A DNA stretch of 54,632 nt from a virus. Positions 2,774 to 32,439 of this stretch are shown here, piece by piece. Position numbers and translations under genes: made by a program. The notes beneath the pieces were generated by a model. It was not told the origin of the DNA. It did not search any database and worked only from the letters and a program-made list of their open reading frames with translations. Numbering within the stretch: the stretch's first letter is position 1; each line of letters starts with the position of its first letter. The stretch is from IMG/VR virus record IMGVR_UViG_3300004282_000003, positions 1 through 54,632 of that record; one strand, given 5' to 3'.

Positions 2774-2936
2774 AATTTTTCTCCTTAGTAATTTTTCTAG
2801 GAAATGTGTAAGTACAAGCCAAGCATTTATACCAAGTTGTAATGAATCTTACCTCTAAAAATACAGATTTAAAATCTCTTAAAACATTGGTTTTTCCTTT
2901 ACACTTTGGACACCTAATTAAATTTAGTTTATTCAT
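2745..2936 (-). CDS. Small zinc-ribbon protein
   Basis: 63 aa with CPKC near residue 9 and CLAC near residue 38, a classic two-knuckle zinc ribbon. The N-terminus MNKLNLIRCPKC starts 4 nt inside the upstream gene end (ATGA-type coupling). A nucleic-acid or protein adaptor is the usual role for such phage ribbons. No specific family recognised. Confidence 0.6.
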   Translation of the reverse strand: MNKLNLIRCPKCKGKTNVLRDFKSVFLEVRFITTWYKCLACTYTFPRKITKEKNYGKEVRNLV

Positions 2937-3187
2937 TTTTTTTCTCTTTTCATTTTAAATAATAAGGTAATTTTTTTTATTTGAGCATCTGAAAATTTTA
3001 TTTCCTCTCTTTCATTAAAATAGAACTTACATTTTTTACATGAAAAACCTTCCCATCTAAAATATGCTGCATGGTCTAAACAATTACCATAAAATATACA
3101 ATTTACTTTTCTATGTTTGTCTGCCATTTCATATGTTTCTAATTCAAAATCTAACTTTTTTGGTTTTGGATAAATCAATTTATTCAT
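2933..3187 (-). CDS. Cys-rich small protein
   Basis: 84 aa with C-x4-C and FSCKKCKFYF, giving four cysteines able to bind zinc. Charged tail MKREKK. It overlaps both the primase end (4 bp) and the next gene start (4 bp), so it is translated in one operon with the primase. Function unknown. Confidence 0.55.
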   Translation of the reverse strand: MNKLIYPKPKKLDFELETYEMADKHRKVNCIFYGNCLDHAAYFRWEGFSCKKCKFYFNEREEIKFSDAQIKKITLLFKMKREKK

Positions 3188-9346: not shown

Positions 9347-11776
9347 TCAACCACATGAAGTGTAAAAGCACTCTGGATTAGTACATTGACCAGAACGACA
9401 ACCAGAATCATGTGAAAGTGTGAATTTTTTACAAACTGGACACTCAGAATAGTAACAAACATTTGTTACTAATTCATGTGGTACTTTTTCTTTTAAAGTT
9501 TCATCACTTGCTTTTTTAATGTCAGTATAATAACTATCCATTATAATACCAATTGCATCAATAATACTTTCTGCTGCAAAAGGTGTTTCTTGATCTTCAA
9601 ATAATCTAAACCAAAATTTATCTTCTCTTGTTCCTCTTAATAGAGAACTGATTTCATTGAAAGGAACTCCACTTTGTAAATTTTTAGATATTACTCTACC
9701 TAATGTATCCAATAAAAGGTTTTCTAGTTTACCTGATTTTCCTAGTCTTAGAAATGCCTCTAATGGTTTATTATTACTATCTTTATTTAAAGTTAAATAT
9801 AATCTTCCATGTGGAGTTTCTATTTCAAATGTTTTCCCATCTCTTGTAACAGGTCTTTTATTATGTGATTTTGTTTGTTCTTTATGCTTCCCCCACAATT
9901 CTTCAAACTCTTTTTCATTTAATGTTAGTGTACCAATTCCACTATCTTTTTCAATTGTTGGTATTTTTATTTTCTTTTCTCCAAAATTTATAGGTTGCCA
10001 ATCTAAACATTGATCTCTATAAATTGTAATTCCCTTTAATCCCAATCTCCAAGCAAGTACAAATATTTTTTCAATATCATGTTTTGTTGCATGATTAGGA
10101 AGATTACAAGTAGAAGAAATACCCAAGCTAATGTATCTTTGCCCTGCTGCTTGCATATTAAGTTTATCTAATGGATTAATATCATGTGCTGTAACAAATA
10201 TTTCTTGAACATTTTTTGGTATATCTCCAATTCCTTTTATAGATCCATTATTTTTTATAATTCTTTTATATAAACTTTTTCTAGATTTTATTTTTGTATT
10301 TTCATCTAAGTGGTTTATGATAGAATTCTCTACATAGTTTTCAAATTCTGGATTTACAAATGTCATAATTTCATGTGATTCAGCTAATTCTTTTTGCCAA
10401 ACAATAGCAGACAATGGTTCAAATGAATAAGAACAATCTGCTGATAATGCTGTTGTTCCTGTTGGTTGGCAAGTTGTCCATGTACAATTTCTAATACCAT
10501 ACTCATCAAATTTTCTTATAGTTTTTTTGGTACATCCATAATATAGAAGAAGATTTTTAAAATGTTTCCAATCATCTTCTGGAATTTTTATACCTCCTTT
10601 TTCTTTTGCTAATTTAATGGATGTTTTTATTGCTGTTTTAGTTAAACATTTACATATTTTTTTAAAGAGTTCTATAGCTTCATCACTATTATATGGAATT
10701 TCTAATTTTATAAATATATCTGCCAATCCCATTATTCCCAAACCAATAGGTCTAGTTGCTTTCATTTCTTCTTCAAATTTAGGATGTAAATAACTTGTTT
10801 TATCAATTACATTATCTAAAAATCTAACTCCTAGTTTTGTTAATCTTTCTAATTCTTCCCAATTAAAACCAATACTATTAGGATCTGTTTGGATTAAACA
10901 ATTATTAAGATTGATTGCTCCTAATACACAAGCACTCCAATCTGGTAAAGGAACTTCTTGACAAGCATTTGCACAATTAATTTTTCCTCTACTTGGAAAT
11001 GGATTGAATTTATTTGCAGTATCTATAAAGAGTAACCCTGGATCTCCTGTTTCCCATGCATTTTCTATTATTTTTTCCCACAAATCCTTTGATTGAATAT
11101 ACTGTTTAAAATCTGGATTATTATATTTTGAAATTGGATTTGGAGAAATACATTCAATATCTTTTTTAGGATCATCATTACAAATCATTGCCATAAAATT
11201 ATCTGGTGCTAACATTGAAATATTAAATGATCTTAAAGATTTCTTATCTCTTTTTGAATCTAATATTTCTAATGTATCTGGATGGTCATGTCTAAATACA
11301 GCAAGATTAGCTGCTCTTCTATTTTTTCCACCAGCCATTACTGTTTGAGATACAATTTCTAATACTTGTAAATATGCTAGAGGACCAGAAGCTTGACCAC
11401 TTGAAGAGATTGGACTTCCTTTTTCTCTTAAATTAGTAATGTTAATTCCAGCACCAGCACCACTAGCATAGATTCTAGAAAGAGTTCCCCACATATCAAT
11501 AATTGAATCCATTGAATCTTCTAGTTTGTATATAAAACAAGCCATTAATTGTTGATCTAATGGATTTGTACTTGTTGTTCCAGCATTTATTAATGTGGGT
11601 GTATTTGGTCTAAAAGATTTTGTTCTTAATATTTCAAAAAATTCAATTTCTTCTGTATCATTATTAGAAATAAATTCAGCAACTCTACGATGAACATCAT
11701 TTGGACGTTTTTCATCTAACTTTTTGTTAAAGTATAACTTTTGGTATATCTTTAAGGCATTTTCAGAATATTCCAT
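9347..11776 (-). CDS. nrdJ: Adenosylcobalamin-dependent (class II) ribonucleotide reductase
   Basis: 809 aa. FRPNTPTLINAGT (about 56-68), the Cys of QQLMACFIY (about 80), an ACQEVPL active-site loop (N-x-C-x-E type), ACVLGAINL carrying the partner Cys, and the phosphate-binding QPTGTTALSADCSYSFEP match B12-dependent NrdJ. A C-terminal zinc/redox tail has CYYSECPVC, CTNPEC and a final TSCG. It converts ribonucleotides to deoxynucleotides without needing oxygen or a second subunit, which suits a host making B12 and possibly anaerobic growth. ATG 11776 is preceded by TAGGAG, which overlaps the stop of the broken gene upstream. Partner in dNTP supply: the thymidylate synthase at 12974. Confidence 0.9.
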   Translation of the reverse strand: MEYSENALKIYQKLYFNKKLDEKRPNDVHRRVAEFISNNDTEEIEFFEILRTKSFRPNTPTLINAGTTSTNPLDQQLMACFIYKLEDSMDSIIDMWGTLSRIYASGAGAGINITNLREKGSPISSSGQASGPLAYLQVLEIVSQTVMAGGKNRRAANLAVFRHDHPDTLEILDSKRDKKSLRSFNISMLAPDNFMAMICNDDPKKDIECISPNPISKYNNPDFKQYIQSKDLWEKIIENAWETGDPGLLFIDTANKFNPFPSRGKINCANACQEVPLPDWSACVLGAINLNNCLIQTDPNSIGFNWEELERLTKLGVRFLDNVIDKTSYLHPKFEEEMKATRPIGLGIMGLADIFIKLEIPYNSDEAIELFKKICKCLTKTAIKTSIKLAKEKGGIKIPEDDWKHFKNLLLYYGCTKKTIRKFDEYGIRNCTWTTCQPTGTTALSADCSYSFEPLSAIVWQKELAESHEIMTFVNPEFENYVENSIINHLDENTKIKSRKSLYKRIIKNNGSIKGIGDIPKNVQEIFVTAHDINPLDKLNMQAAGQRYISLGISSTCNLPNHATKHDIEKIFVLAWRLGLKGITIYRDQCLDWQPINFGEKKIKIPTIEKDSGIGTLTLNEKEFEELWGKHKEQTKSHNKRPVTRDGKTFEIETPHGRLYLTLNKDSNNKPLEAFLRLGKSGKLENLLLDTLGRVISKNLQSGVPFNEISSLLRGTREDKFWFRLFEDQETPFAAESIIDAIGIIMDSYYTDIKKASDETLKEKVPHELVTNVCYYSECPVCKKFTLSHDSGCRSGQCTNPECFYTSCG

Positions 11777-11784
11777 TTTTTCTC

Positions 11785-11988
11785 CTACTGATTTCTAGCT
11801 AATGAAGCATTTGCCCACATTACAACTTCTTCTAGTTTTGTAAATGCTAAAGATTTTTCTCTACTGTCAGGACAAATATTATTAATTAAAATTCCAAATT
11901 ATTTTGCTTTTTCTCTTATATCTATAAACTTCATAACATTTTCATCTTTTGGTGGATGATAAGTAAATATTTTTTCAATATTAGTCAT
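11785..11988 (-). pseudogene. Acb2/Tad1-hairpin-like anti-CBASS gene interrupted by TAA
   Basis: ATG 11988 has AGGAG 6 nt upstream and overlaps the previous stop. The frame reads 29 codons (IFTYHPPKDENVMKF...IREKAK), then TAA at 11899-11901, then continues open for 37 codons (FGILINNICPDSREK... LEEVVMWANASLARNQ) to a TAG at 11785. Both halves together match, from memory, the small phage family with the Acb2/Tad1 hairpin domain, which sequesters cyclic nucleotide signals of CBASS/Thoeris immunity. There is no other lesion and no usable restart after the stop. GAA to TAA would be a single change. Recent decay, readthrough or a sequencing error are all open; family call not verified by search. 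Confidence 0.6.
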
Positions 11989-12175
11989 TATCTTCTCCTT
12001 GAGCTTCTATAACTATCATTCCTTTTTCAATATAAACAATATAACCTTCTACTTTTTCTATTTCTTCTATAGAAATAGAAGTTTTACCATTATAGTTTTT
12101 TAATACAAGAGCCGATAATATTTGTCCATGAATATCCATTTGTTTTCCATCAATTTTTATATTTATTTTTTTCAT
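11981..12175 (-). CDS. Small beta-rich hypothetical protein
   Basis: 64 aa with alternating hydrophobic strands (KINIKIDGKQMDIHG, EGYIVYIEKGMIVIEA) and an acidic end GEDND. Its stop overlaps the start of the broken Acb2-like gene, and its own ATG touches the stop of the HTH gene upstream, so these form one translational unit. No family recognised. Confidence 0.5.
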   Translation of the reverse strand: MKKINIKIDGKQMDIHGQILSALVLKNYNGKTSISIEEIEKVEGYIVYIEKGMIVIEAQGEDND

Positions 12176-12666: not shown

Positions 12667-12987
12667 TTAGAATTGTATCCATTCATTAATTGTTTCATCT
12701 TCATGTGTTACTTCTTTAGGGTATAATTCACTACCACATTTTGGACAATTTCCAAAAAAGTATCTACAAGTTTCTACTTTTCTTTTTAATATTTTATCAT
12801 ATTTTATTCCAGTATCTACTAATCCTGCTTCTGATTCATAATCGTGAAGAGGTAGAGTGAGTTTATTTTTCCAATTACATTCTTTATTAGTACAACATAA
12901 TTGTGTAAATGGATCATATTCTTCTATATCATATGTTTTTAGTTCATATCTTTTTGATTTATATCTTTTTAGTTTATATCTTTTCAT
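12667..12987 (-). CDS. Zinc-ribbon protein with basic N-terminal repeats
   Basis: 106 aa. The N-terminus repeats a 15-nt unit giving KRYK/KRYE steps (KRYKLKRYKSKRYELKTYD). Then CCTNKEC and NCPKCGSELYP form a zinc ribbon. The repeat probably arose by replication slippage. Overlaps the thymidylate synthase end by 14 bp. Confidence 0.55.
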   Translation of the reverse strand: MKRYKLKRYKSKRYELKTYDIEEYDPFTQLCCTNKECNWKNKLTLPLHDYESEAGLVDTGIKYDKILKRKVETCRYFFGNCPKCGSELYPKEVTHEDETINEWIQF

Positions 12988-13897
12988 TTGTTTTCCCCAA
13001 TCTTTGTTTTAATACTTCCAATTGAAAATCGTAACAATGCAAACTTTTAGAGGTAAAAGATAGTGGTCCAGGGTTTATGCCTAGTTCACCTGCTACATAC
13101 TCATTTAGCAATGTAAATCCCCCCATGTTAGTAGGCCATCCACCCCATAAATCCCAACTTCTATAAATTACTTTTGTTAATAAATAATCTTCTTCTGATT
13201 TATTAAAACCATGAGTAATACATTCACATTCAAAGCGTGTGTGATGTATATTATCTTTTATTATTCTTTCATATTGAAAAGGTTCATATTCAAATCCACA
13301 ATTTTTACATTTATAGTTTATGTTTTTAATAATTCCAAAGTCTAATCCTCTTAAACATGGAGAAGTTTTTCTTTCTTGTTCAGTTTTGTAGGGAATATCA
13401 TAAGCAAAATTAGATTCAGGATAACCAACTGTTAAATAACAATGTTCATTTCCAAAACCTTTTTCTTTGAAATGATTTATAATCCATTGAAGTTGGTTAG
13501 GTACATTTATTGGAAAATAGGCAACATCTAAACCATCATAAAATCTTATTCCTCCTGGTGGATAATAATTTCCACCAACTATAAATGTTGCATATTTATA
13601 ATCTTCATTATCTTTTATTTTTCCATTCATTAAGTAATCAGCAAAATACATTTCAATATCATGGTCTGTAGTTGGTGCTGGTAGATTACTTCCTTCAGGC
13701 ATAATAGGTGCTAAGGGTTTTTCGTGGGGTAAATGAATAAATCCTGAAACATCATCAAATGATAATCTTGTAGCTTCTTTATAAGAACCTTCTGTAATAA
13801 ATTTCTTTCTTCCATTATCATGTAAAGCTTGAAGTAGTTGGAACCAAGTGTCACCTAGAGTTGTTCCCTCAATAAAAACTGGTTTACAAATTGACAT
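12974..13897 (-). CDS. thyA: Thymidylate synthase (ThyA superfamily) with zinc-finger insertion
   Basis: 307 aa. SPCLRGLDF carries the catalytic Cys (about 181). YRSWDLWGGWPTNMGG and the end motif SKSLHCYDFQLEVLK match the Arg, Asn and His-x-Tyr substrate contacts of ThyA-fold enzymes, closest to the archaeal-type or hydroxymethylase branch. It methylates dUMP to dTMP or, if the branch differs, hydroxymethylates a pyrimidine nucleotide. Residues about 196-226 (YKCKNCGFEY...FECEC) form a four-Cys insertion between catalytic blocks that I do not know from ordinary ThyA. Works with the class II RNR to supply dNTPs. Confidence 0.8.
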   Translation of the reverse strand: MSICKPVFIEGTTLGDTWFQLLQALHDNGRKKFITEGSYKEATRLSFDDVSGFIHLPHEKPLAPIMPEGSNLPAPTTDHDIEMYFADYLMNGKIKDNEDYKYATFIVGGNYYPPGGIRFYDGLDVAYFPINVPNQLQWIINHFKEKGFGNEHCYLTVGYPESNFAYDIPYKTEQERKTSPCLRGLDFGIIKNINYKCKNCGFEYEPFQYERIIKDNIHHTRFECECITHGFNKSEEDYLLTKVIYRSWDLWGGWPTNMGGFTLLNEYVAGELGINPGPLSFTSKSLHCYDFQLEVLKQRLGKTNEKI

Positions 13898-16111: not shown

Positions 16112-16365
16112 AACAATTCCTGTTCTTTTATTTCTTCCATTATACTCTCAAATTCAGTTTCAATTTCTTCCTCTTCTGATTTCAATTCTTTTGTTTCTGC
16201 TTTGATATAAATTTCTCCTTCTTCTGTTGATTTACAACCATATTCATCTTTAAGCTTTTTTAAGTAAAAGTTTCTTTCTGCTAATTTTTCTTGTAAATTC
16301 TCCTTCTTTCGGTTTAAGGATTTTAAAGTTTGTTGGAGATCTTCTTGCATAATTTTCAATTTCAT
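16108..16365 (-). CDS. Coiled-coil protein between Mre11 and Rad50-C genes
   Basis: 85 aa from ATG 16365 (AAGG 9 nt upstream). Almost wholly heptad-like Leu/Lys/Glu with one Cys in DEYGCKST. It overlaps the Mre11-like gene by more than 100 bp in another frame and the Rad50-C gene by 4 bp. It may be a third piece of the split Rad50 coil, which would otherwise be very short on the C-terminal side. Inference only. Confidence 0.5.
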   Translation of the reverse strand: MKLKIMQEDLQQTLKSLNRKKENLQEKLAERNFYLKKLKDEYGCKSTEEGEIYIKAETKELKSEEEEIETEFESIMEEIKEQELL

Positions 16366-17329
16366 ATTCATAATCCTTTCCAAAAACATCTATTAATGTT
16401 GTTCTAATTACTTGTTCTACTTTTCTTTCTATTCCAGGTTGCATTATTATTTCAAGTAGATCAACAATGAATTTTGTTTTATAATCTATATTCATTGATT
16501 TTAAACTAAAAATAAAATCCTCCAATCCAGAAACTAATGTAGATTTATCTCTAGTTTCTTCTAAATGATCTTCTGAAATAACTTCTTCAGATGGTTTGGC
16601 ACACTTCAATGGAATAAGATCATAATCATATTTTCCAAGATTCTTTTTCAATATAACAACACTTGGAAAAGTATTTATTTCATCTTCATTTGCCCTTCTT
16701 CTTGTAAGAGTTCCAGGGTTTATAAAAAGAGTATTTCCTTGTTCAAAAATCCCTCTTTTATGCCAATGACCACTTATAACTACTTCCATACCACTAAATT
16801 TTGGATTATCAGAATAAACATAATGTTCTTCATTATGTTCTTTAACAAATGGTGGAGGTTTCCTTTTACTCTTAGATTCTATTACTGCTTTATGCATAAT
16901 AACTATTTTTTTGTTAGTTATTAATCCTATGCTATCTCTAGATCTAATTTGTTCTATTCCTATCCCCCAATCTAAATATTGAATTATTTTTGTTGAAAGT
17001 ACATGCTGAACAAATGGATGAACATCAATCAAGAATCCTGTTGGTGTATTTCTACTTGATTCTAAATTATGAAAAAATAAATCATGGTTTCCATAAATAG
17101 TATAAAAAGGTCTTGTAATTACAGATGTTAAAATTCCAAGTATTCCTAATCCTATTTGTGGTGTATCTACTAAATCTCCAACATTAATAATAGGACATTT
17201 GTATCTTTCTGATAAATTCATTACTTCTTTTAATTTTCTAAATTGTGTATCTACTAAATCATCCTTTCTACATGGTGGATTTCTACCTGAAATATGTACA
17301 TCACCCAAAATTAAATATTCATTAACCAT
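16250..17329 (-). CDS. Mre11/SbcD-like exonuclease
   Basis: 359 aa. Calcineurin-type phosphoesterase motifs in order: LGDVHIS (Asp10, His12), NVGDLVD (Asp52), YGNHDLF (Asn81, His82, Asp83), IMHKAV, ISGHWHKRG and INPGTLTRR. The C-terminal part is helical and ends basic (FTRKISRKKLLLKKA). It is the nuclease subunit of the Mre11-Rad50/SbcCD complex (T4 gp47), resecting DNA ends for recombination-dependent replication. Sits 1 nt after the Rad50 N-half gene. Confidence 0.85.
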   Translation of the reverse strand: MVNEYLILGDVHISGRNPPCRKDDLVDTQFRKLKEVMNLSERYKCPIINVGDLVDTPQIGLGILGILTSVITRPFYTIYGNHDLFFHNLESSRNTPTGFLIDVHPFVQHVLSTKIIQYLDWGIGIEQIRSRDSIGLITNKKIVIMHKAVIESKSKRKPPPFVKEHNEEHYVYSDNPKFSGMEVVISGHWHKRGIFEQGNTLFINPGTLTRRRANEDEINTFPSVVILKKNLGKYDYDLIPLKCAKPSEEVISEDHLEETRDKSTLVSGLEDFIFSLKSMNIDYKTKFIVDLLEIIMQPGIERKVEQVIRTTLIDVFGKDYEYEIENYARRSPTNFKILKPKEGEFTRKISRKKLLLKKA

Positions 17330-17330
17330 T

Positions 17331-18377
17331 TTAGTTCCTTATTTTTTGATTGCATGTTGGACAAATTTTTAATATCTTCAATAGTTTGTTATGTTCTTTC
17401 TCCAAAGAAGATATTTCTTCTTGCAACTTTTCTATGGTTTCCTCATTCTCATTTATAGATTTTAATGTTTCTCGAAGTGCTTGTAGATGATCTAATCGTG
17501 TTATTACTTCAGAATTTACAATCAATAACTCTTCTAGTTTGTGTATGGATGGATTATATTTTTCCAAATCCAAATTATTTAATTCCCATAATTTAACAAT
17601 TGTCCCTCTCAAATTTTTTAGAAATTTTGATTTTTCAATTCCTTTATTTATTTTTTCTAATAGTGATATTGCTAACTTTTCAATCTCTTGTATTTTTTCT
17701 AAAGTAATTTTTATATCAGAAATAGATATAATTTTATCAATTATTCTTTTAAGTTCTTCAACCATTTTAATTCTTTTATCATACTTATTTTTTCTTTTAT
17801 TTAATTTTCCCAATTTTTCCTTTATTTCTGGAACTCCTTTTAATTTATCCATTTCTTGTTTAGCTTCTTGTTTCATCAAAATTTGTACTTTTTTATCAGA
17901 ATTTAATTTTCCAGTTTTCTTTTTTAAATCATCAATAATTTTTTCATAGTGTTCTGTTCCAGACAAATCATTTATATATTTTGCAACATTCCCTGGTGAA
18001 TCAAAAATTAGAAAATGTTTGTTTAATTGTCTTTGCCAATTAATAGGTTTCAAATTAAATAAATTTTTAATTGGTGGTGGTACTTTTGTTCCAAATGCAT
18101 TAAATGATTCTTTATATCCATTCATAAAAAGAATGTATTCTTTTGGTTTTCTTATAATCTTAAATTTATCAGTAGTAACAGTGATTCTATAATTTGGACT
18201 ATTGAAAATTTTTGTAGCATTTAATGGATGATTGTTAATTACTAAAGCTAATGCTCTAAAAATGGTACTTTTACCTGCTCCTGTTTCTCCTGTTATTATA
18301 TTTAAACCATCTGTTAGATTTACTGTTAGTTCTTTATGATTCCCAAAATTTTGTAATTTAATCTGTTTAATTATCAT
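17331..18377 (-). CDS. Rad50/SbcC-like ATPase, N-terminal half with zinc hook
   Basis: 348 aa. MIIKQIKLQNFGNHKEL and Walker A GETGAGKSTIF (about 30-40) begin the head; a long coiled coil follows; the protein stops just after CPTCNQ (Cys339, Cys342), the CxxC zinc hook. So the gene ends at the tip of the coil and the returning half is encoded separately at 15533. A normal Rad50 is one continuous chain, so this is a true gene split at the hook. Starts inside the end of a 56-aa Cys-rich gene. Confidence 0.82.
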   Translation of the reverse strand: MIIKQIKLQNFGNHKELTVNLTDGLNIITGETGAGKSTIFRALALVINNHPLNATKIFNSPNYRITVTTDKFKIIRKPKEYILFMNGYKESFNAFGTKVPPPIKNLFNLKPINWQRQLNKHFLIFDSPGNVAKYINDLSGTEHYEKIIDDLKKKTGKLNSDKKVQILMKQEAKQEMDKLKGVPEIKEKLGKLNKRKNKYDKRIKMVEELKRIIDKIISISDIKITLEKIQEIEKLAISLLEKINKGIEKSKFLKNLRGTIVKLWELNNLDLEKYNPSIHKLEELLIVNSEVITRLDHLQALRETLKSINENEETIEKLQEEISSLEKEHNKLLKILKICPTCNQKIRN

Positions 18378-29594: not shown

Positions 29595-30821
29595 TTAATT
29601 CTCCTTGCACATTGATAAGGTTTTCATGTTCATCCAATTCTTTCCAACACTCCATTCAGTTGCTAATTCAACTTTCTTTGGAATTGGTAAATTATGATTA
29701 ATCATTTCATAATCAACTAATTCCATTAATTCCAATGCTTCTTTTTTGTAAAACATAAAGAATATAGAATCATGTATTTGGGTACACATATAACTTTTCA
29801 AATTGCTTTGTAGTAGTTTCTCTTCAATTCTAATAATAGCATCTAGGAGAATATGGAAACTACAAGATTGAATTGGAAAGTTAAATATTTCATTTTGTGT
29901 TAATGGATAATTCCTTCTAAATCCTAATGGAGTTTCTATATAACCATTTCCATAATAGAATTGTAATTGATCTTCTTGCCATTCTTTTAAACCTTTATAT
30001 CTATTGAAAAATTCTTTTTGTGCTTCTGCAAAATGCTTTTCTGAATATTCAATATAAAATTGATTCCAAGGATCTTTATTGTAAGGAGATCCTTTCCTAT
30101 ATTTTTCTCTTACAAAGTTTTTATAAACATCAAACTTTCTAAATTCTCTTGCTATAGATATATTGCTAGCACCATAAATATTTGCAAATGTCCAATTGTT
30201 TTTTACAATATATCTTTCATCATCATGTAACTTTTTTACTTCTGGTAATTCATAATTCCATCCAAATATAACATTAGTCCAATGACTATGCATATCTAAA
30301 TCTTCATTTAAATCTTTTAATAATTGTTTATCACCACTTAAATTACCTGCTGTTTTAACTTCAGCACCTTCATAATCAACTTCTGCTAATAACCAATCTG
30401 GTCCTAAAGGAATAATTGGTTTTCTTAAAATCTTCCAACTCATTCCTTTTTTTATATCTCCATGTTTAGGTTGATTTTGAATATTTGGACTTGAACCAGA
30501 ACTTCTTACAGTTTCAGTAGTATTTAACCATAAATCAGGGTGTATAAAACTTGTTCTAAAACCTTTATATCTTATTCCTTCTTGAACCCATCTTCTCAAT
30601 TCAGCAAGATAGTTATTTTTAGCCTTTTCTAGTTTCCTATATTCCAATAACAAACTACAAAATTTAATCTTCTCTTTTTCAGCATAATGTAGAATGACAG
30701 ATTCATCTACACTTGCTTTCTTTTCACCGGATTTACCCCCTGCTGTTTCTTTTATTGGTTGAAGATTTAAATGATTGAATAGAAAATCTGAAACTTGCTG
30801 TGGACTACTTAGATTAAACAT
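29595..30821 (-). CDS. Family A DNA polymerase, catalytic half (split)
   Basis: 408 aa. Starts at FNLSSPQQVSDFLF, normally an internal thumb-domain position in Pol I. Then RSSGSSPNIQNQPK, motif A LAEVDYEGAEVK (Asp about 149), motif B RYIVKNNWTFANIYG with Lys and Tyr of the O-helix, and motif C TQIHDSIFF, where the usual HDE is HDS. It therefore has the palm and fingers but no exonuclease, which is in the upstream ORF overlapping by 8 bp. The pair should work together as a replicative polymerase. The Glu to Ser change is next to the catalytic Asp, not the Asp itself. Confidence 0.82.
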   Translation of the reverse strand: MFNLSSPQQVSDFLFNHLNLQPIKETAGGKSGEKKASVDESVILHYAEKEKIKFCSLLLEYRKLEKAKNNYLAELRRWVQEGIRYKGFRTSFIHPDLWLNTTETVRSSGSSPNIQNQPKHGDIKKGMSWKILRKPIIPLGPDWLLAEVDYEGAEVKTAGNLSGDKQLLKDLNEDLDMHSHWTNVIFGWNYELPEVKKLHDDERYIVKNNWTFANIYGASNISIAREFRKFDVYKNFVREKYRKGSPYNKDPWNQFYIEYSEKHFAEAQKEFFNRYKGLKEWQEDQLQFYYGNGYIETPLGFRRNYPLTQNEIFNFPIQSCSFHILLDAIIRIEEKLLQSNLKSYMCTQIHDSIFFMFYKKEALELMELVDYEMINHNLPIPKKVELATEWSVGKNWMNMKTLSMCKEN

Positions 30822-32439
30822 CTTTTTTCCTCATAGTCAATTTTCTTTTAATTGTTGTAATTATATTTATTGGTTCCTCTTCATCATCTGTATCATTTTT
30901 CTTTGGCTTTGTAAATACTTTATTCTTATTTTTTTCTAAATAACTTATAATATCTGGAAGATTTTCAATTTGGTCATATGTTTTTCTTAATTCACTATCA
31001 AGTAATTCTTCTAAAGTATCCAATTCAAATTCATCAACTGGCAATCCATTCCATGACATATTTGCAAATACTTCATGGCCTTTTAAGATAAAGTCATAAC
31101 ACCATCTAAACTTTTCAGTTTTATCTAACCAATTATCTAACAATTCATAATTGGCAAATGATGTTATTGAATCTAATCCAGAATATTGAATAAGATCATC
31201 TGGTGGACATAAATGAATTGTATTCTTTTTATCATTCTTATTTTTTATTTCTAAATACTTTTTTACTTTCTTATTATATTTTGGTAATCCAAATCTAACA
31301 AGGTTTTGAAAATCAAGAGAAGTGCAACCACCCCGTTCATCAATAACATGAGTAGCCAGCATTGTATCAAATGTATTTCTAATTATATTTCCTCTTGGAT
31401 TTAAATGATCTTTAAACGCAAAATCTCTTGGATTACTATCTTTAAATACCCAACGTCTAGTTACCAATTCTTCATATTTTACATTTTGAATTATAGTTAA
31501 AAGATCTTCTCTATTCAATAAATCAAAAACTTTATTTTTAAGTTTTGGAATTGGATCTTCATATCTTGGAATATAAATAACCCAAGCTTTTTTTCCAATT
31601 GCAAATGACATACACCAAACTTCAAAATTATCATCATAAGGTTTTAAATTGGTAGTTTCATAATCAAAAGAAAACTTTCCTGATTCTTCTATTTGCTTTT
31701 GCATTTTATCAAAATCATCTATATCTCTAATTTGTTTTATAGTTATTCCTGAAAGAACCTTTCTTTTCTTTAGAAAATTATTTACATATTTTCTTTTATG
31801 CAATAATCTTTTATATGAATCAAATATTCTTTTTAAATCTTTTTCTAATACAATTGCATTGCCAGGATTTCTTAAAATATTTGCCGGATGATTAGTACAA
31901 AATACTAAACAATTAAATTCATAGTTAGGAATAATTCTGTTTCTCAGTTTTGTTATGCCTTGTTTTTCTCCAAATAGATTCAACACTGAATTAGATGCTA
32001 CTTCACCCAAACAGATAATTACATTTGGTTTTAATTGTAATAGTTTTTCTTTTAATTTTGTTCGGCAACATCTAACATAGGTTTCTGACATTTTATTATT
32101 TGGAGGTCTACAAGCAACAGCATTAATAATACTACAATGTTTAATATAATTTCTTTTTATTGTTGATCTTAATAATTGTCCTGATCTACCAACAAAATTT
32201 ATTCCTCTTTGTTGCTCTTCTTCCCCTGGTGCTTCACCAACAAAAACTAAACCATTTGGTTGTGGATTTCCTATTTCAGTTATTCCTATTGGTTTATTTG
32301 TAGAAGATTTTAAACCACATTTATTACAATCATAAATTACTTTCTTTTTAGTTTCCCCCTCTGGAATATCAAAATAAAAATTTCCTTTTGATTCTATTTC
32401 TTTTGGTATTCCTATAATCCTTTTTAATGTAGTTTTCAT
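30814..32439 (-). CDS. Uracil-DNA glycosylase + 3'-5' exonuclease half of DNA polymerase
   Basis: 541 aa. Residues about 30-210: family 4/5 UDG with GEAPGEEE, FVGRSGQLL, NAVACRPPNN and a CTNHPANIL block, and Cys38, Cys41, Cys110 and Cys124/125 placed for a 4Fe-4S cluster. Residues about 240-450: DnaQ-like exonuclease (FSFDYETTNLKP, VKYEELV, IQYSGLDSI). The end is a thumb-like helix then an acidic linker and KRKLTMRKKDV. SPO1-like phages carry UDG-exo-pol in one chain; here the chain is cut before the polymerase core. It would proofread and bind or remove uracil. Confidence 0.82.
   Translation of the reverse strand: MKTTLKRIIGIPKEIESKGNFYFDIPEGETKKKVIYDCNKCGLKSSTNKPIGITEIGNPQPNGLVFVGEAPGEEEQQRGINFVGRSGQLLRSTIKRNYIKHCSIINAVACRPPNNKMSETYVRCCRTKLKEKLLQLKPNVIICLGEVASNSVLNLFGEKQGITKLRNRIIPNYEFNCLVFCTNHPANILRNPGNAIVLEKDLKRIFDSYKRLLHKRKYVNNFLKKRKVLSGITIKQIRDIDDFDKMQKQIEESGKFSFDYETTNLKPYDDNFEVWCMSFAIGKKAWVIYIPRYEDPIPKLKNKVFDLLNREDLLTIIQNVKYEELVTRRWVFKDSNPRDFAFKDHLNPRGNIIRNTFDTMLATHVIDERGGCTSLDFQNLVRFGLPKYNKKVKKYLEIKNKNDKKNTIHLCPPDDLIQYSGLDSITSFANYELLDNWLDKTEKFRWCYDFILKGHEVFANMSWNGLPVDEFELDTLEELLDSELRKTYDQIENLPDIISYLEKNKNKVFTKPKKNDTDDEEEPINIITTIKRKLTMRKKDV

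Follow-up and report, generated by a model that had tools for sequence, protein, structure and literature searches.

A probable recent nonsense mutation in the Acb2-type sponge gene of an uncultivated phage

In the work that led to the discovery of Acb2, a no-stop mutant (X37Q) of phage PaMx41 was found to make a long gp24 and to evade CBASS (reviewed in PMC10419184 and PMC12043709). In the genome record of PaMx41 (KU884563), orf24 is naturally interrupted by a stop at codon 37, and the phages Neko, Ph_15, PaP2 and PaMx33 carry uninterrupted 93-aa genes at the same position. Possessing Acb2 can also be harmful to a phage. In the Panoptes defense, a decoy cyclic nucleotide restrains a toxic effector, which is released when Acb2 sequesters the nucleotide; in 14 of 15 T4 mutants that escaped Panoptes, acb2 was the only gene with lesions, some of which were premature stops, and PaMx41 was cited as a sign of such pressure in the wild (PMC12657218). 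T4-like phages that are naturally resistant to Panoptes have loss-of-function mutations in acb1 or acb2 (PMC12657230). In a further Pseudomonas phage, FBPa48 (ON857941, our sequence L240, 22224-22457), we observed that the acb2 locus is shorter than that of its sisters; the annotated ORF has 38 codons and the locus aligns in two pieces that cover 60% of the query, possibly marking another natural loss.

The gene described here comes from an uncultivated phage and lies in IMG/VR record IMGVR_UViG_3300004282_000003, the whole of which (54,632 nucleotides) we call the window. It is encoded on the minus strand, which the first-pass annotation had left unstated, and is read from 11988 to 11785 as a frame of 67 codons with one interruption; the translation is MTNIEKIFTYHPPKDENVMKFIDIREKAK, a stop, and FGILINNICPDSREKSLAFTKLEEVVMWANASLARNQ up to the terminal stop. 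This translation bears out the earlier claim of a single in-frame TAA at codon 30 (11899-11901) and no other damage: the TAA is the sole defect, the frame is free of indels and the terminal stop is a TAG. The ribosome site is likewise normal, a Shine-Dalgarno AAGGAG on the same strand (11995-12000) standing 6 bases 5' of the ATG. The TAA separates a residual open frame of 29 codons (11902-11988) from a remainder of 37 codons plus the terminal TAG (11785-11898). Since no in-frame ATG, GTG or TTG occurs between the TAA and codon 57, a useful restart after the stop is absent, as had been proposed.

The acb2-like locus occupies a 204-bp gap in a dense array of minus-strand genes, most of which touch or overlap. 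On one side, a 64-aa ORF with no Pfam family (11981-12175, minus strand) ends at 11981 and shares 8 bp with the start of the acb2-like gene. On the other, an intact gene for the large chain of ribonucleotide reductase (809 aa; 9347-11776, minus strand; PF02867, E 2.3e-115) starts at 11776, its own ribosome site overlapping the terminal stop of the acb2-like gene. The same array includes a thymidylate-synthase-like gene (12974-13897, minus strand; PF00303, E 2.1e-6, above the curated cut-off). Reductase and ThyX genes also precede the family member of Mycobacterium phage CRB1; elsewhere the neighbors of the family gene differ, and consequently we did not use the reductase/thymidylate-synthase context as functional evidence.

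As to the window at large, a search with about 50 of its proteins gave no Pfam match for most, and none was recognized as a terminase or capsid protein. The record resembles the replication portion of a larger phage rich in AT (27% GC). Its DNA polymerase is spread over two minus-strand ORFs, the first of 541 aa and the second of 408 aa, with an 8-bp overlap (29595-32439). The 408-aa ORF has a ribosome site of its own, so this looks like a natural split and not a sequencing frameshift; by eye, the N-terminus of the 541-aa ORF resembles a uracil-DNA glycosylase. Also on the minus strand, a metallophosphoesterase gene adjoins an exonuclease/SbcC-like gene (16250-18377), and the two are perhaps an SbcCD-like pair.

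The assignment of the frame to the Acb2/Tad1 hairpin family was upheld by a profile search with the two halves joined. With codon 30 entered as an unknown residue, the read-through frame matches the whole of profile PF24729 (Acb2/Tad1 hairpin; residues 9-65, E 4.6e-20; 72 bits, the cut-off being 27) and PHROG 1454 (E 5.3e-24). The 37 residues past the TAA match PF24729 independently (E 1.4e-13, 51.2 bits); the first 29 residues are below the Pfam threshold and match PHROG 1454 at E 0.002. At 27% GC, stops are expected in about 8% of the codons of a random frame, and a random frame of 65 codons would contain no more than one stop with P of about 0.023; the Pfam match removes a chance origin altogether.

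The highest identity to the read-through frame found by tblastn was 61%, to Paenibacillus phage proteins. Some Paenibacillus phage members of the hairpin family are labelled "(putative) phosphomannomutase" (for example in MH460825, our L022, 3989-4204, and in KT361652), which looks like a propagated misannotation. With a profile built from 29 sequences, the best solved relative was Acb2 homolog 43 (PDB 9ptq, E 5e-9), followed by Tad1 entries (7e-4 to 9e-3) and T4 Vs.4 (0.19). T4 Vs.4 also passes PF24729 (E 7e-20); its direct profile alignment to our gene is weak and spans only the C-terminal part of Vs.4. Tad1 (Thoeris anti-defence 1) shares its C-terminal hairpin with the window gene (profile E 7e-4) but has an extra N-terminal beta-sheet part, whereas the window gene is the hairpin alone. 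Membership in this family suggests that the acb2-like subfamily would have anti-CBASS activity. The frames of homolog 43 and of the actinophage and Paenibacillus phage hairpin proteins are uninterrupted, as expected of an active Acb2, unlike that of the window. Because of the TAA at codon 30, we therefore file the window gene as a broken member of the family and not as an active Acb2.

When the TAA was read as Q, AlphaFold2 predicted helices at residues 4-9, 17-38 and 43-65 with a mean pLDDT of 84.5, and this model agrees with the published layout of Acb2, which has one short and two long antiparallel helices (PMC12043709). Foldseek neighbors in BFVD carry the name Acb2/Tad1 hairpin; against the PDB there was no significant match, Tad1 appearing at ranks 1, 2 and 4 with E above 1. 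Codon 30 falls within the first long helix (model residues 17-38), so that the natural product would lack the whole second long helix. What is left is the short N-terminal helix and somewhat more than half of the first long one, including the conserved Tyr10. This residue is kept in 85% of relatives and was placed by eye, the alignment to T4 Vs.4 being C-terminal only, in a position like that of Tyr8 of T4 Acb2, which contacts the nucleotide. Past the TAA lies the stretch that the family conserves best (P40, R43, E44, TKLEE, W58 and R65), and it is retained in full.

How long ago the gene was interrupted can be judged from its state of preservation. At 23 well-conserved columns the frame shows 2 departures, compared with 0 to 5 in 48 relatives. 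A departure at residue 32 is unique to the window frame among these 48; Ala occupies that position in 96% of them. Retention of the conserved residues, together with the absence of indels, indicates that the loss is too recent for decay to have set in. No second copy of the family that would render the loss harmless is present in the record. An intact allele of this very phage was not found, only relatives about 60% (up to 64%) identical, the nearest of which are intact; a search for close relatives of the phage in which the allele is intact returned only an identical contig and reductases at 43-44% identity.

We then asked how often family copies are interrupted in this manner. Family queries were run in four scans of IMG/VR and one of GTDB genomes, and six-frame reading with a profile gave 172 distinct family stretches. 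A stop lies within the domain in two of them, the window gene and that of IMGVR_UViG_3300047447_000040 (L014), a count that is a lower bound because the survey relies on conserved peptide patterns. The survey covers the acb2 family without a control family, and so says nothing on whether acb2 breaks more often than other small genes. One stretch (L154) was left out of the count since its stop precedes the start. Two others, L013 and L068, were considered as frameshifted copies and rejected: their upstream frames lack the N-terminal half, so they look truncated or fused.

In L014 the acb2-like gene is at 2774-3019 and its TAA stands one aligned codon after that of the window. A sister of this phage, L012, has an intact acb2-like gene encoding a protein 90% identical, while the portal genes of the two share 74% DNA identity. 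When 48 ORFs of L012 were matched in L014, stops were found in only two, both antisense to the acb2 region, which we judged to be artefacts of the ORF picker; about 40 other orthologues showed no stop. The acb2 stop is thus the only lesion seen in L014. L014 combines a premature stop with an intact sister, whereas the window has the stop but its nearest intact relatives are about 60% identical.

The reading we favor, with a probability of roughly 0.8, is that this uncultivated phage carries an Acb2-type gene for a cyclic-oligonucleotide sponge whose function was lost recently, and naturally, through a nonsense mutation. Of the three readings offered by the first-pass annotation, recent loss is thus the best supported. 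A base-call error, another of them, or an assembly error hiding an intact gene is improbable: the same base is called in two separate contigs, the other being IMGVR_UViG_3300004155_000077, which carries the identical TAA and is 100% identical over all 9,594 bp. That contig probably represents a different assembly, though perhaps one made from the same sample. No other family-like frame broken by a single stop was seen in the 54.6-kb window. Among in-frame pairs with one stop between them in its non-genic DNA, only the acb2-like pair resembles a known family by inspection; four other such pairs look like low-complexity frames, likewise by inspection and not by profile search. Moreover, natural acb2 stops are known in cultured phages. 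The remaining reading, functional readthrough of the TAA yielding some full-length sponge at a low level, was left with no positive sign. It keeps a small probability because a clean frame with its conserved residues kept past the stop looks alike under ongoing readthrough and under recent loss. Against it, the base after the TAA is T, and a U directly after UAA makes for strong termination. Shuffled sequence folds as well as the RNA 3' of the stop (z -0.25), no Rfam element was found, the window has no tRNA gene, and codon 32 deviates from the Ala kept in 96% of relatives.

Two further readings fared worse still. The 29-residue N-terminal peptide could have a job of its own, for instance as a leader coupling translation of the next gene, as its strong ribosome site and its position directly before the reductase gene might suggest. 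We consider this very improbable, since the reductase gene is served by a ribosome site of its own, the 37 codons past the stop keep the conserved residues of the family, and only 2 of the 172 distinct family copies have a stop inside the domain. Recoding of TAA as an amino acid, missing from the alternatives of the first-pass annotation, has nothing in its favor except the open frame itself. Of 99 ORFs picked greedily from the window, 63 end with TAA, which is thus the commonest terminator, and no tRNA genes, hence no suppressor tRNA, were found in the 54.6 kb; TAA is therefore not recoded. Long genes, such as that of the 809-aa reductase, are also open under the standard code. In L014, too, other genes end with TAA and the record is free of tRNA genes. 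On stop use and the absence of tRNA genes, we rejected recoding for both phages, its residual probability being negligible.

As a probable natural and recent nonsense allele, the window gene is a fresh example of an already known phenomenon, the natural acb2 stops of a few cultured phages. Like PaMx41 orf24, it is naturally cut short by a stop within the first half of the gene, and the sisters of PaMx41 are intact; unlike the window phage, PaMx41 is a cultured Pseudomonas phage of another branch, with a longer protein whose function was tested. The T4 acb2 (vs.4) Panoptes escapers share with it the loss of acb2 function, premature stops included, which permitted T4 growth (PMC12657218), but they arose under laboratory selection against a known defense, whereas the window is the record of an uncultivated virus. 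Intact relatives would be expected to assemble as hexamers, binding the second messengers of CBASS and related systems and hiding them. The TAA at codon 30 would end translation midway along the first long helix, the second long helix would never be made, and no sponge would result; termination at this TAA is presumably efficient and the short 29-residue peptide probably inactive.

Such an allele would be tolerated in a host without CBASS, or favored where a guard such as Panoptes punishes Acb2. Pressure from CBASS or Panoptes is a plausible background to it, and the loss could be either neutral (in a CBASS-free host) or favored (under a Panoptes-like guard). The stops of the window gene, L014 and PaMx41 all lie within the first long helix (n = 3 cases only). 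An unlikely but wider possibility is that wild phages repeatedly toggle acb2 by single nonsense changes, CBASS favoring its retention and Panoptes-like guards its loss; if that were true, the window, L014 and PaMx41 would represent three independent "off" states.

The Panoptes papers describe Acb2 as posing a dilemma for phages and cite a few cultured phages with broken copies. Clean and recent nonsense alleles in uncultivated phages are the evidence needed on how widespread the loss of acb2 is, and the finding of two unrelated lineages in one small survey suggests that such losses can be counted in metagenomes. The finding is also a warning that annotating a counter-defense gene from a family match by itself can overstate the capacity of a phage.
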